64,000 bases of DNA, taken from Gemmatimonadaceae bacterium. GTDB lineage: Bacteria > Gemmatimonadota > Gemmatimonadetes > Gemmatimonadales > Gemmatimonadaceae. The stretch lies in assembly GCA_030647905.1 (NCBI GenBank), contig JAUSJA010000017.1, positions 62,001-126,000 on the forward strand, read 5' to 3'. A program made the position numbers and the translations under genes. Below, piece by piece: positions 18,830 through 30,893 of this stretch. Numbering within the stretch: the first letter of the stretch is position 1; every line of letters starts with the position of its first letter. Below the pieces are notes generated by a model. It made no database searches. It was not told the DNA's origin and saw only the letters and a program-made list of their open reading frames with translations.

Positions 18830-18857
18830 TACCCGTTACCCGTTACCCGTTACCCGT
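18830..18857. repeat. Four tandem copies of TACCCGT between two genes
   Basis: Four exact heptads fill the gap between the aminotransferase stop and the transketolase-like start. Read on the minus strand they are ACGGGTA units. A degenerate, partly inverted version occurs at 24285-24340 upstream of etfB. Confidence 0.85.
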
Positions 18858-25132: not shown

Positions 25133-26118
25133 TGGCGAACATTCTTGCATTCGCGGAATCGCGGAACGGAGAGCTGCGGAAGGTCGCGCTCGAGGTTGTC
25201 ACGGCGGCACGCAGGCTTGCCGATGCGACCGGCGGCGAAGTTCATGCCCTGCTCGCGGGCGCTCCCGGCATCGTGGCAAAGTCCGAACAGCTCGCGCAGC
25301 ACGGCGCTGATGTCGTGATCGTCTGCGAGCACGACGGCTTCACGAAATACAATCCCGAAGCGGTGTCGGCGCTCGCCGCGGAGCGGATCAAGTCCGGCGG
25401 CTACCGCGCCGCACTGTTCGCCACATCCGCGCTCGGTCGCGATCTCGCACCGCGCGTTGCGGGAAAGCTCGCCGCCGGAATCGTCACCGACGTCACGAGC
25501 GTGGAGCTCACCGGCGATACTCTAACGGTGAAGCATCCGATGAACATCGGGAAAGTGATCGCGACGGTCACTATCGCGGGAACTCCGGCGATCGTGTCAC
25601 TCAGGCCAAACACGTACGCGCCAGTCTTGAATCCGAAGGCGGGCCGTGTCGAGCGGGTCGCGCCTGTCGGCGATCCGTTGGCGTCTCGCGTTGTCGTGAA
25701 GGAGCTGGTCACTGGTTCCGCCGGCAAGCTGGATCTCGCCGAAGCGCCGGTGATCGTCGCCGGTGGCCGCGGCCTCAAGGCAAAGGAGAACTTCAAGCTC
25801 GTCGAGGATCTGGCCGACGCTTTCGGGAATGCCGCGGTGGGCGCAACGCGCGCCGTGACCGATGACGGATGGCGTCCGCACGCGGACCAGATCGGACAGA
25901 CGGGACGGCTGGTGAGTCCGGAACTGTACGTCGCGGTCGGCATCTCCGGCGCCGTGCAGCATCTCGCCGGAATGAAGACGTCGAGGACGATCGTCGCCAT
26001 CAACAAGGACAGGGAAGCTCCGATCTTCAAGGTTGCGGACTACGGAATCGTCGGCGACGTTTTTGACGTCGTGCCAGCGCTTACCGCTGCCGTGCGAGAA
26101 GCGAGGAAGGGCCAATAG
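25132..26118 (+). CDS. etfA: Electron transfer flavoprotein alpha subunit
   Basis: A 328-residue protein of standard length. The C-terminal FAD domain is clear: VAGGRGLKAKENF, GATRAVTDDGW, GQTGRLVSPELYVAVGISG and AINKDREAPIFKVADYGIVG. It forms the ETF heterodimer with EtfB and binds the FAD that accepts electrons. It starts at the base where etfB stops, and the oxidoreductase gene begins one base after its own stop, so the three are one operon. Confidence 0.94.
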   Translation: MANILAFAESRNGELRKVALEVVTAARRLADATGGEVHALLAGAPGIVAKSEQLAQHGADVVIVCEHDGFTKYNPEAVSALAAERIKSGGYRAALFATSALGRDLAPRVAGKLAAGIVTDVTSVELTGDTLTVKHPMNIGKVIATVTIAGTPAIVSLRPNTYAPVLNPKAGRVERVAPVGDPLASRVVVKELVTGSAGKLDLAEAPVIVAGGRGLKAKENFKLVEDLADAFGNAAVGATRAVTDDGWRPHADQIGQTGRLVSPELYVAVGISGAVQHLAGMKTSRTIVAINKDREAPIFKVADYGIVGDVFDVVPALTAAVREARKGQ

Positions 26119-26119
26119 C

Positions 26120-27790
26120 ATGAGCAGTGGTCGCCGGCTCCGGGTCGTTCCGGCCGAGTACCAGCCGCCGCTTCCGGCGGAGCTGATTCTTCGCGAGCCA
26201 CTCGATCCGGAGGCTGTGCCGATGGACGTCGTGTTCGTCGGCGGCGGTCCAGCCGGTCTCGCGGGCGCTATCGAGCTCGCGCGTCTCATCAAGGAAGACA
26301 CCGAAGCAGGCGGTACGCTCGGCGAAACTCAAATCGCGGTTCTCGAAAAGGCATCGGGTCTCGGCGAGCATTCGCTCTCTGGCGCGGTCGTGAATCCGCG
26401 CGCGTTCCAGGAGCTGTTTCCTGATCTCGCGATCTCCGATTTCCCGTTTCGCGCGCCCGTGACGACTGAGCGCGTGTACTTCATGAAGGGCGGTCGCGCG
26501 CAGCGCATTCCCACTCCGCCGACAATGCAGAACCACGGGCACTACATCGCGTCGCTGTCGGAGATGGTGCGATGGCTTGGCGAGAAAGCGGAGGGGATGG
26601 GTGTCAATATCTTCACCGGCTTTCCTGCCGCGGCGCTGATGATGGATGGAGAGAAGGTCGTCGGTGTGCGAACCACTCCGGCCGGCGTGATGCGCGACGG
26701 CACGCCCGGCAGCGGGTACACGCCACCGACGGACATCTCGGCGCGTGTCACTGTCTTGTCGGAAGGTACGCGGGGCTCGCTGACGCAGGCGTGGATGAAG
26801 CAGGCCGGCGTCACCTCCGACAATCCACAGATCTTCGCACTCGGCGTCAAGGAGATCTGGGAGACGAAGACGCCGCTCGACGCGATCATCCACACACTGG
26901 GTTGGCCGCTACCGAACGATGCATTCGGCGGAAGCTTCATGTATCCGCTCACGCCGAATCTCGTCGCCGTCGGCATCGTCGTCGGAATGGATTACCGGCA
27001 GACGACGCTCGACGTGCATCAGCTCCTGCAGAAGCTCAAGACTGCGTCGCCGTTCCGCGAGTATCTGGAAGGCGGCGAGATGGTCGAGTGGGGAGCGAAG
27101 ACTATCCCGGAAGGCGGCTTTCATGCGCTGCCGAAGAAGCGGTACGGCGACGGTGTTCTCGTCGTCGGCGACTCTGCGGGCCTGGTGGAGGTCGCATCGC
27201 TCAAGGGGATTCACTACGCGATGCAGTCGGGGATGTACGCGGCGCGTGCCATTGTCGACGCGCTCAAGAAGGACGACGTGTCCGACAACACCATGGCGCG
27301 TTACGACGCTCTGGTGGACGCGAGCTACATCACGTCGGACCTGAAGGAGCGGCGCAATATGCGGCTCGCGTTCCAGAAGGGCGGGCTTTATGTGGGCGGA
27401 ATCAAGGCGACACTGATGACGCTGACGAAGGGCGCGTTTCCCGCCGGGAAGATCGAATCGCACGCCGATGCCGAGGTGCCGCGCGACGTGACGCCCGATG
27501 AGCCGTTCGTTCCCGACGGCAAGCTCACGTTCAGCAAGCTCGACGCGAACTTCAAATCGGGTAACGCGACGAGAGACACCATTCCTTCTCACCTCGTTGT
27601 GGGTCAGGATATCCCGCCTGAGGTGGCCGAGCTCTACGTGCACATGTGCCCTGCGGGAGTGTATGAGCTGAACGATGGACGCCTCGTCGTGAATCAGGCG
27701 AACTGCGTTGACTGCAAGGCGACGGACGTGATCGGGCCGCGGTGGACGCCGAGGGAAGGAGAGAGCGGGCCGAAGTATCGGTTGATGTAA
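26120..27790 (+). CDS. Electron transfer flavoprotein:ubiquinone oxidoreductase, with one canonical cluster Cys replaced
   Basis: A 556-residue membrane-associated flavoprotein. The dinucleotide-binding loop VFVGGGPAGLAGAIELA is near residues 35-51, and the C-terminal iron-sulfur region holds C510 (HMCPAGVYE), C529 and C532 (ANCVDCKATD). Canonical enzymes have a further Cys three residues after the last; here it is Thr535. The enzyme oxidises ETF and reduces quinone, completing the route from glutaryl-CoA and other acyl-CoA dehydrogenases. It overlaps nothing but follows etfA by one base. The function is firm, the cluster type is open. Confidence 0.9.
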   Translation: MSSGRRLRVVPAEYQPPLPAELILREPLDPEAVPMDVVFVGGGPAGLAGAIELARLIKEDTEAGGTLGETQIAVLEKASGLGEHSLSGAVVNPRAFQELFPDLAISDFPFRAPVTTERVYFMKGGRAQRIPTPPTMQNHGHYIASLSEMVRWLGEKAEGMGVNIFTGFPAAALMMDGEKVVGVRTTPAGVMRDGTPGSGYTPPTDISARVTVLSEGTRGSLTQAWMKQAGVTSDNPQIFALGVKEIWETKTPLDAIIHTLGWPLPNDAFGGSFMYPLTPNLVAVGIVVGMDYRQTTLDVHQLLQKLKTASPFREYLEGGEMVEWGAKTIPEGGFHALPKKRYGDGVLVVGDSAGLVEVASLKGIHYAMQSGMYAARAIVDALKKDDVSDNTMARYDALVDASYITSDLKERRNMRLAFQKGGLYVGGIKATLMTLTKGAFPAGKIESHADAEVPRDVTPDEPFVPDGKLTFSKLDANFKSGNATRDTIPSHLVVGQDIPPEVAELYVHMCPAGVYELNDGRLVVNQANCVDCKATDVIGPRWTPREGESGPKYRLM

Positions 27791-27794
27791 GGGA

Positions 27795-27960
27795 CTACGG
27801 AATGACGGAACTGCGGAAAATAAAACTACCCGGCGACCGGCTGATGGCTCAACACTGCGCAGTCGGCTCCGGGCCAAGCTGACAGCCGAACCCACAGCCC
27901 ACCGCGCCTCATAAGCCCACCGCCGGTCGCCGGGTAGTTCTATGTTCCGTAGTTGGTTTG
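27795..27960. repeat. MITE-like element with terminal inverted repeats
   Basis: The left end at 27809-27842 is an inverted, imperfect copy of the right end at 27923-27955; the core word CCGGTCGCCGGGTAGTT is exact in both. About 80 bases lie between and contain no gene. The left end also has repeated ACTACGGA-like octamers. It begins just past the ETF:quinone oxidoreductase stop. Transposition is inferred from the structure only. Confidence 0.6.
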
Positions 27961-28014
27961 TTCAGGAAGAAACTTCCTTTGACGCTCTGTCCTGTTCGCG
28001 AGGTAAGACGGACA

Positions 28015-28866
28015 ATGGCACAAACAACACGGGTTTGTCCGGCGCGAATCGCTGATACAAGATGGCATTGCCTCTCCGCCAATCTCTTTGCCGTTTGCTT
28101 GTCGGTTCTCAGTTTTGCCTCTTCCCTCGAAGCGCAAGCGACTCGAGCCGAACCAGTTGAACGCGGCGTTGCCGTAAGTGGTTTCGTCGTATCGGATGGA
28201 AGATTGATATCGGGCGCCGAGGTCACCGTTGTGGGGACGCCTCTGATAACACATTCCGACGCGAACGGCCTGTTCCGTTTTCCTGATGTCGCGCCCGGTC
28301 AACGTGTTATTCAAGTACGTGCTATCGGATTCGTTGCCAAGGATTTTCCTTTGGACCTGCGCGGGAAAGAAGACCGGCGAGTAGTCCTTACACTTCCGAA
28401 GGCCCCGCAACAGCTGCCTGACCTGGAGATCGTTCGGTCAGCTGATAAGCCGCAACGATACGCTCATACCAGCAAGTTTGACCTTTTCTTCGCACGTAAG
28501 GCGCAGGGCATCGGAACGTTCATCACTCGCGAGGAGATTGACAAGCGATTCAAATCGCGGACTCAGGAGCTGCTCCAGACAATCCCCGGAGTTCTCGTGC
28601 GGCAGCACGGCACACAATGGTGGATTCAGTTTCAACGGTGCGGACGCTCAAAGATTCCTGGTAGTGCGACGGCGGGCAAAGAATCCGAGTTGGTAGAGGT
28701 TTTCGTTGACGGTCAGTTCTCACCCGACGGTACAGACCGACTCGAGACAATCACTCCTGCTGAAATCGAAGCAATAGAGATATACAAAGGCCCAGCCCAG
28801 CTGCCGGCGGACGCGCGGGGTCGCGGATGCGGAGCGATCTATGTGTGGCTTCGCGAGGGGTCGTGA
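28015..28866 (+). CDS. Exported protein with carboxypeptidase-like domain and TonB-receptor plug, no barrel
   Basis: A 283-residue protein: an N-terminal signal region, a carboxypeptidase-regulatory beta domain (VVSDGRLISGAEVTVVGTPL, then DANGLFRFPDVAPG) and a TonB-receptor plug (FITREEIDKRF, LQTIPGVLV, VFVDGQFSPDG, ITPAEIEAIEIYKGPAQLP). A true receptor would continue for another 400 or more residues as a barrel; this one stops after the plug. Its composition is visibly less GC-rich than its neighbours and repeat copies lie on both sides, which suggests acquisition. Function is unknown. Confidence 0.7.
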   Translation: MAQTTRVCPARIADTRWHCLSANLFAVCLSVLSFASSLEAQATRAEPVERGVAVSGFVVSDGRLISGAEVTVVGTPLITHSDANGLFRFPDVAPGQRVIQVRAIGFVAKDFPLDLRGKEDRRVVLTLPKAPQQLPDLEIVRSADKPQRYAHTSKFDLFFARKAQGIGTFITREEIDKRFKSRTQELLQTIPGVLVRQHGTQWWIQFQRCGRSKIPGSATAGKESELVEVFVDGQFSPDGTDRLETITPAEIEAIEIYKGPAQLPADARGRGCGAIYVWLREGS

Positions 28867-28877
28867 AACGCGGATTG

Positions 28878-28910
28878 CCGGTCGCCGGGTAGTTCTAAGT
28901 TCCGAAGTTG
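28878..28910 (+). repeat. Third copy of the CCGGTCGCCGGGTAGTT repeat
   Basis: This matches 27923-27955 in the same orientation at 31 of 33 positions. It lies 11 bases past the stop of the plug-domain gene, so that gene is bracketed by direct repeats. Confidence 0.75.
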
Positions 28911-28926
28911 TTCTTTTGTCCCGGCA

Positions 28927-29646
28927 TCAGCTAGCCGCATCGGCGACCTCGTACAGATCTATCCTCTGCCTGATCTTCCCCGCCTCGAAGGCATGCGTCA
29001 CCTTCGACCTGATCACGAGCCGCTCCTCGGCGCACTGCTCGATGAACTCGGGCACGCCGATGCGGCCCGGGTCAGCGAGTATCACCATCCCGCCCGGCGC
29101 GAGACCGCGCTTGAAAATGCCCGGAAGCAGCCGCGCGTACTCCTTTTCGTAGAGGACGTCCGACGCGAGAATCAGGTCGAAGCCCTTCGCTTCGCGTGGA
29201 AACGATCGCCAGTCTATCATCCTCGCTTCGGGCGAGCGGCCGGTATTCCGAAACGCATTGGCGCGGGTGAAGGCGAGCGCGTCGGTGTAGTAATCGGTCG
29301 CCGTCATCTCGTATCCGGCAATCATCGCCCCGATCGTCACGAGCCCGACACCGCATCCGAGCTCGAGACCCTTGCCACCGGTTCGCCGCCCGCCTCTGTC
29401 GGCGAGCGAGACGAGATGCGCCGCGAGGATTGTGGATGAGGGCCAGATATCGGCCCAGTAGGGCAGCCGCTCGTCCATCACGAAGTCCTCTTCGCGGATC
29501 AGGTCGTCGGAATTCTTCGGCCGAAGAATCGAGAACGTGCGGCTGCCCACCTCGACGTCACCGGTGACGGTGTCGAAGCGCTTCTCGAGCGCCTCGACGA
29601 GCTCTTCGCCCTCGAGGTCGGTGAACTCCGCGACGGCGGGCGTCAC
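28927..29646 (-). CDS. SAM-dependent methyltransferase (METTL21-like protein lysine methyltransferase fold)
   Basis: A 239-residue protein with a class I methyltransferase core: motif I ELGCGVGLVTIGAMIAG, the acidic motif II TATDYYTDAL, and FDLILASDVLYEKEY, a D-x-L-Y-like motif seen in protein-lysine methyltransferases of the METTL21/FAM86 group. The target is unknown. Its start overlaps the moeA stop by four bases, making it the last gene of a four-gene operon. Confidence 0.75.
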   Translation of the reverse strand: MTPAVAEFTDLEGEELVEALEKRFDTVTGDVEVGSRTFSILRPKNSDDLIREEDFVMDERLPYWADIWPSSTILAAHLVSLADRGGRRTGGKGLELGCGVGLVTIGAMIAGYEMTATDYYTDALAFTRANAFRNTGRSPEARMIDWRSFPREAKGFDLILASDVLYEKEYARLLPGIFKRGLAPGGMVILADPGRIGVPEFIEQCAEERLVIRSKVTHAFEAGKIRQRIDLYEVADAAS

Positions 29647-30893
29647 GTGAGAGTCAGGTGATCGGTCATGACCATCGTATCCCCGAGAGGAAGCGCGCGA
29701 TGGATCTCACCGGCCGCGAGCTCGAGGCGGTCGCCCGGCAGAATGAGAAGAGCGTTTGCTCGCGCCATCGCCATCAGCCCGGACGAGCTCTGCGAGCCGG
29801 AGAGATCGGCCATGTATTCACCCTCCCCGGTTCGGGTAAGGGCGACGCGAAGGAAGTGCATGAGCAATGCCGCGAGCGTGATCGGACGCGACAGACGCGC
29901 CGGAACGGTCTCACGGAAGAGCGCTGTGAAGCCGAGCATCTTCCGGATCACGGGGCGAACGAAGACCTCGAATGTAACCATCGCGGAAACGGGATTGCCC
30001 GAGAGGCCGATCCACGGCTTGCCGAGGAGCGTTCCGAACGCAAGAGGCGCTCCGGGTCTCATCCGCACCTTCCAGAAGTCGAGCTCACCACCCAGCTCGG
30101 CGAACACGTCGCGCACGTGATCGTGGTCCCCAACGGAAATGCCGGCCGACGTGACGATGAGATCGCACCCGGTCGCGGCAGACAATTTCTCTCGAAGAGA
30201 CGCCGGATCGTCGCGCGCGATGCCGAGATCCACCGGATCTCCACCGGCATCGCGGATGAGTGCCGCGAGGGTGACGGAGTTGGACGACACGATTCGCGTG
30301 CTTGCCTGCTCAGCGGTGAAATCGGCGAGCTCCACGAGCTCGTCTCCCGAGCTGATGAGCGCAATCCGAGGCGCGCGATGCATCTGAACGGTCTTGATGC
30401 CGGCCGACGCGATGGCGCCGATATGGGCGACGCGGAGTAGCTCACCCGCATCGAACAGGATGTCCCCGGCGCGGAAATCCTCGCCCGACTTGCGGATGTT
30501 TCTGCCCACATCGCGCAGTTTGAGAATCGTCACTATGTCTCGGCCTTCGTCCGTGTCTTCCCGCCGCACGACGGTGTCGGCTCCCGCCGGCACCGGGGCG
30601 CCGGTCATGACGCGAGTCGCTTCGCGCGGCCCGATCGCGCGGGAAGGGAAACCGCCCGCGGCAACGGTCTCCACGACACGAAGCTGCGCGGGCGCGGGCC
30701 GCGGAGCGACCATATCCGCCTGGCGAACCGCGTACCCGTCCATGGACGAGTTATCCCACGGCGGCGACGTGAGAGGAGAAACGACACGCTCCGCCAGAAC
30801 CCTGCCGGCTGCGTTGCCAGTCGCTACAGTCTCCGCAGGCAGCGCCTCGATCCGTCGCAGGATCCTCGCGCTCGCCTCGGCGACAGGAATCAA
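29643..30893 (-). CDS. moeA: Molybdopterin molybdotransferase
   Basis: A 416-residue protein of normal MoeA length. Seen motifs are the N-terminal SPPWDNSSMDGYAVR, MTGAPVPAGADTVVRRED, the MoCF-domain segments TSAGISVGDHDHV and GLSGNPVSAMVTFEVFV. MoeA inserts molybdate into adenylylated molybdopterin. The likely user in this window is the molybdenum hydroxylase at 13756-16385. It overlaps dacB upstream and the methyltransferase downstream by four bases each. Confidence 0.93.
   Translation of the reverse strand: MIPVAEASARILRRIEALPAETVATGNAAGRVLAERVVSPLTSPPWDNSSMDGYAVRQADMVAPRPAPAQLRVVETVAAGGFPSRAIGPREATRVMTGAPVPAGADTVVRREDTDEGRDIVTILKLRDVGRNIRKSGEDFRAGDILFDAGELLRVAHIGAIASAGIKTVQMHRAPRIALISSGDELVELADFTAEQASTRIVSSNSVTLAALIRDAGGDPVDLGIARDDPASLREKLSAATGCDLIVTSAGISVGDHDHVRDVFAELGGELDFWKVRMRPGAPLAFGTLLGKPWIGLSGNPVSAMVTFEVFVRPVIRKMLGFTALFRETVPARLSRPITLAALLMHFLRVALTRTGEGEYMADLSGSQSSSGLMAMARANALLILPGDRLELAAGEIHRALPLGDTMVMTDHLTLT

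Follow-up and report, generated by a model that had tools for sequence, protein, structure and literature searches.

A plug-domain gene between inverted ends of a dispersed MITE-like repeat family in a Gemmatimonadaceae genome: a plausible joint insertion

A 1.1-kb stretch between two convergent genes of a Gemmatimonadaceae bacterium is, on balance, best explained as a transposase-less, transposon-like unit that was inserted between them, with a small palindromic element and a gene moving together. This stretch lies in the window, which denotes the whole 64,000-nt segment of DNA that was analyzed, and belongs to a 3.1-Mb genome (G000) assembled in 37 contigs. The outer boundaries of the unit would be two inverted ends of one dispersed repeat family (at 27809 and 28919), which would hold a complete small palindromic element at the left, with its right end now inside the unit, along with a compositionally foreign plug-domain gene. 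For its origin, we infer a single insertion event, a trans-acting enzyme and a donor: the small element most likely adjoined the plug gene in a donor, and a recombinase acting in trans would have used the far end of the element together with the solitary end located beyond the gene. Element and gene could then move together, comparable to mobile insertion cassettes and Tn3-derived miniature elements.

The original prediction described three copies of one repeat at this locus, the first inverted and the others direct, which was confirmed. The 17-mer CCGGTCGCCGGGTAGTT was detected at three exact places in the window (27824–27840 on the minus strand, and 27923–27939 and 28878–28894 on the plus strand), and a search of the 64,000 nt allowing up to three mismatches gave no further place. 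When the window was shuffled 100 times, the mean was 0.23 and the maximum 2; three places were never reached. Copies 1 and 2 face each other as the arms of a palindrome, with 85% complementarity over 41 nt. When treated as single-stranded DNA, the region 27790–27965 gave a predicted fold with z = −6.0 compared with shuffles. Both results bear out the 150-base palindromic element that had been proposed. Copies 2 and 3 are direct repeats (41 nt, 88%) that include 21 consecutive identical bases. The prediction that such repeats, matching at 31 of 33 bases, flank an AT-richer gene agrees with our comparison, which gave the same 31/33 match and a GC content of 55.7% for the plug gene against 63.7% for the window. 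The outermost copies, 1 and 3, are mutually inverted (27809–27841 and 28877–28909, 33 nt, 88%), so that the 1.1-kb stretch is bounded by inverted ends, as in a transposon. For a transposition reading, this inverted pair is more telling than the direct repeats to which attention had been drawn. The positions of all features are collected in Table 1; the single outer end begins 10 bases past the stop codon of the plug gene.

Table 1. Features of the insertion locus and its flanking genes (positions refer to the window)
Feature	Position	Strand	Basis
Flanking gene, ETF-ubiquinone oxidoreductase (ETF-QO)	26033..27790	+	domain match
Entire interval from one flanking stop codon to the other, largely insertion compared with 16 congeners	27791..28926		synteny
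Short 8-bp units (ACTACGGA/ATGACGGA) preceding the left arm, directly after the ETF-QO stop codon	27791..27808	+	sequence reading
Complete palindromic element, two ~41-nt arms and a 64-nt middle	27809..27955		repeat comparison, fold, end profile
Outer end on the left, shared by element and unit	27809..27849	-	repeat comparison, end profile
Right (internal) end of the element	27914..27954	+	repeat comparison, end profile
Cargo gene, CarboxypepD_reg and TonB-receptor Plug domain, no barrel	28015..28866	+	domain matches
Solitary outer end with neither arm nor partner, in inverted orientation to the left end	28877..28919	+	repeat comparison, end profile
Flanking gene, methyltransferase, convergent	28927..29646	-	domain match

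A gene lying between direct repeats that share 21 identical bases in a row also has the topology of a single crossover, in which the small element was resident first and a circular molecule with the plug gene and one end later recombined at the right end of that element. Such a history is unlikely in our estimate: the repeats share very little identical sequence for an ordinary homologous exchange, and the outer end, when compared with the eight other ends in G000, agreed best with that of locus C26:484k (40/44) and next with the internal end (36/44), although an exchange of flanks during the crossover could blur this difference. The closer agreement with C26:484k is also evidence against the outer end being a recent local copy of the internal one.

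The absence of the whole stretch from congeners is consistent with the joint insertion that we favor. The ETF-QO gene was present in 17 of the 18 congeners searched (88% identity in G006; no match in G016), and the methyltransferase follows it in the same convergent arrangement in 16 of them, the contig of G017 ending at this point; these 16 were hence taken as comparable. In all 16, the plug gene is missing from the space between the two genes, and no family end was detected there (best profile E-value, 0.65). Measured between aligned gene ends, which slightly overstates the distance between stop codons, the gap was 10–35 bp in nine congeners, 70–149 bp in four and 387–624 bp in three, while the same measure gave 1,142 bp in the window, filled by the element, the gene and the outer end. 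Little DNA is left outside the repeats: about 18 bases separate the ETF-QO stop codon from the first one, and about 7 follow the last one up to the stop codon of the methyltransferase. Together these fall within the 10–35 bp of the shortest gaps, so that the insert consists essentially of the unit. The empty sites that the original prediction proposed to look for were thus found, the gene and the repeats being jointly absent in 16/16 comparable congeners, and the arrangement it had named as contradictory, a plug gene kept at this place in the absence of the repeats, was seen in none of them. Extra DNA of other kinds, free of family repeats, occupies the site in G005, G013 and G015, which implies that it takes insertions by other routes too. 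In G013 this DNA contains a different open frame, and in G005 it is a stretch that could be resolved only in part (labels by reading). An esterase-like open frame of ~200 aa, also labeled by reading, was observed at the repeat-free junction of G015 (L093:3075–3700). Elsewhere in the genus, a convergent-gene gap of G013 contains an insertion with its own inverted repeats (L255:2588–2821; 68 nt at 78%), and the gap between the same two genes in G003 contains a different insertion, again with its own inverted repeats (L256:742–1450; 118 nt at 79%, 473 nt apart). Two different insertions in one gap suggest that convergent-gene gaps in this genus collect unrelated elements.

The plug gene encodes 283 aa when translated from the ATG at 28015, a start chosen by reading in an open frame that begins at TTG 27958, and the N-terminus of the product looked signal-peptide-like by eye. 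Its GC3 of 0.56, compared with 0.76–0.83 for five neighbor genes, suggests that the gene was acquired. In the search of 179 family genomes (cut-off 1e-33, with at most 13 candidates scored per genome), the best-scoring relatives were 38–41% identical and located in G003, G007 and G100. Eight loci of plug homologues were inspected up to 1.5 kb on each side, and no family end was detected there. The single plasmid match to the protein, in Gemmatirosa, was 26% identical over 78%. Matches were obtained in 59 of the 61 genomes searched, including its own, many of them in short open frames and others in full-length receptors. Matches to this short CarboxypepD_reg and Plug protein are thus widespread, reaching 27 per genome (G033), and many of the frames are too short for a barrel.

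The palindromic element is a member of a dispersed and patchily distributed repeat family, which was found in G000 and in one congener, G013. The 17-mer was detected in G000 at eight places in five loci (six copies), which comprise the window locus, two complete palindromes on contig C26, a short palindrome on C35 and a single end on C19. When two mismatches were allowed in the end, 18 of 148 family genomes gave matches (nine in G000, 41 in G013 and one in each of the other 16), and a reversed control pattern matched some two dozen of the 148. A longer end pattern matched three of the 395 phylum genomes sampled, with 39 places in G013, seven in G000 and one, at three mismatches, in G268; its control gave one match in the 395. 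The ends are numerous only in G000 and G013 among these 395 genomes. A pattern scan was also run on named genomes, for which nearly all the matches listed were single and located in other phyla, mostly Actinobacteria, and were taken as chance. The other copies that had been suggested as a check in the genome and its relatives therefore exist, as five loci in G000 and 39–41 end matches in G013.

A profile was derived from 44 ends and applied to the DNA that had supplied them, where its E-values are circular; the congener loci did not contribute to it. This gave 50 matches in the 28 loci examined, corresponding to 49 places owing to the overlap of L052 and L123. They make up 21 complete pairs, 66–248 bp long from one end boundary to the other; the remaining seven are single ends, of which G000 has two and G013 five. 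The stretches of G013 examined were 20 regions of 1.2–1.5 kb together with L050, L052 and L054; they cover 24 of the 27 listed among its 41 end matches, with C15:39898, C21:160691 and C22:19112 lying outside. The gap at the C19 locus of G000 differs in the six congeners inspected, and the intergenic part of the C35 locus was unalignable with seven congeners; a clean element boundary was recognized at neither. The single family end at the C19 locus (L024:3322–3363) provides the final four codons and the TAG stop codon for a BadF-like kinase gene, whose convergent neighbor is dicarboxylate-symporter-like (both labels by reading). The C-termini of this kinase differ in G006 and G018, the two congeners translated. 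Runs of 8–9-bp units such as TTCCGCAG/TTCCGTAG were seen by eye just outside the element ends in L021, L023, L088 and L112, and also beside the unrelated insertion of G003 in L256. A further tandem repeat was noticed in the window at 18830–18857, where TACCCGT occurs in four perfect copies.

The distribution of this family bears on a second alternative, in which the gene arrived by another route and came to lie between two separately inserted elements, of which one stayed complete and one has since shrunk to a single end, gaps between convergent genes tending to collect such elements. Four of the five family loci in G000 do sit between convergent genes (by reading), the examined loci include the seven single ends, of which that at G013:C159 appeared by eye to be a half element broken near its middle, and 3/16 congeners carry other extra DNA at the site. 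We nevertheless consider this course of events rather unlikely, as it needs three insertions in a native gap of ~20 bp, leaves little DNA outside the repeats and has to draw on six family copies in the genome. By a hand estimate, with six copies spread over five loci in a 3.1-Mb genome, two would lie 1 kb apart by chance in roughly 1% of cases.

Target-site duplications were sought by scanning the 21 pairs at offsets of 2–10 bp, and at most 3/21 pairs agreed for 3–4 bp, a result whose power is limited by divergence and indels. A 2-bp signal in 15/21 pairs corresponds to the self-complementary CG inside the repeat, and no duplication was recognized by eye at the window locus. A Y1-type transposase (PF01797) gave no match in G000 or G013, while 3/19 genomes of the genus have one. 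Five single ends in G013 were followed inward for ~5 kb, the open frames beside them being read by eye, and no second end was located at the distance expected for an insertion sequence; the sole other element inward was a complete copy 5.3 kb off. The layout at G013:C159, in which a complete element, 5.3 kb of genes and the single end lie in the same orientation, was considered as a second example of the unit and rejected: the 3.5 kb beside the single end is resident DNA in G006, G015, G018 and G007. The 1.6 kb nearest the complete element matches none of these four. Neither a second copy of the unit nor a donor locus was found. RNA-family models over 26500–30000 gave only one sub-threshold match (29859–29883), which is outside the unit. 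No match was obtained in phage DNA for the whole insert or in plasmid DNA for the palindromic element, and none of the viral contigs matched one 20-base form of the end exactly. The earlier suggestion that the gene was carried by, or trapped between, such elements has thus gained the dispersed family and the joint absence of gene and repeats in 16/16 congeners as evidence, but no donor locus, second unit copy or target-site duplication was found that would speak for movement in one event, nor, in a narrow search, a partner enzyme.

Like MITEs, the 21 paired copies of this family are short, possess terminal inverted repeats and contain no transposase, and the copies are dispersed over several loci. 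We refer to the element as MITE-like, and not as a MITE or TIME, because no target-site duplication was found and, in a narrow search, no partner enzyme. The ends do not appear to resemble those of Tn3. The palindromes contain GTAG, which is a hallmark of REP sequences. An origin from the REP/RAYT system was set aside because a Y1 transposase was undetected in G000 and G013. In integrons, palindromic attC sites carry the core consensus RYYYAAC/GTTRRRY. An integron-like cassette would be in line with direct copies around one gene and a palindromic site of ~150 bp, yet the ends do not fit this core by eye and the copies are scattered instead of forming arrays, which makes such a cassette extremely improbable. 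REP/BIME sequences with RAYT transposases (PMC2817692) are likewise intergenic palindromes, whereas the present family has few copies of 66–248 bp and showed no Y1-type transposase in G000 or G013. Bacterial MITEs (PMC10969869) are also short, palindromic, multi-copy and devoid of coding capacity; the present family differs in that no target-site duplication was found, nor a related autonomous element beside five single ends in G013, and in that several of its ends are single.

The unit that we propose resembles a mobile insertion cassette (MIC/MICE) in having a coding sequence without transposase between inverted ends (33 nt, 88%). As to insertion as a unit, the site is empty in 16/16 comparable congeners, and no second location of the unit was seen. 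In the qnrS2 cassette of the Aeromonas plasmid pAC3 (PMC5444012), inverted repeats similarly enclose a transposase-less gene together with a MITE. Here, however, the internal element and the outer ends belong to one family, and neither a target duplication nor a partner transposase was seen. TIMEs are Tn3-derived miniature elements that can mobilize neighboring DNA and form larger non-autonomous units (PMC4133298). They have 38-bp Tn3-type ends and 5–6-bp target duplications, neither of which was seen in this family. A more specific scheme, in which the family inserts between genes by a non-DDE, non-Y1 enzyme that makes no target duplication, and captures a neighbor gene through a solitary end past its stop codon, appears quite improbable.

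The cases of gene capture by miniature elements described in PMC4133298, PMC5444012 and PMC10969869 concern mainly resistance genes. Among the open-licence titles listed in searches for miniature, nonautonomous or palindromic elements of gemmatimonads, no description of this repeat family was found. The present analysis adds a repeat family and leaves the general understanding of such elements unchanged; the locus can plausibly be read as a gene that travelled with a miniature element, and as such it is not particularly unusual. It would provide a chromosomal instance of such capture from a phylum that has received little study, and one for which the congeners show clear empty sites.
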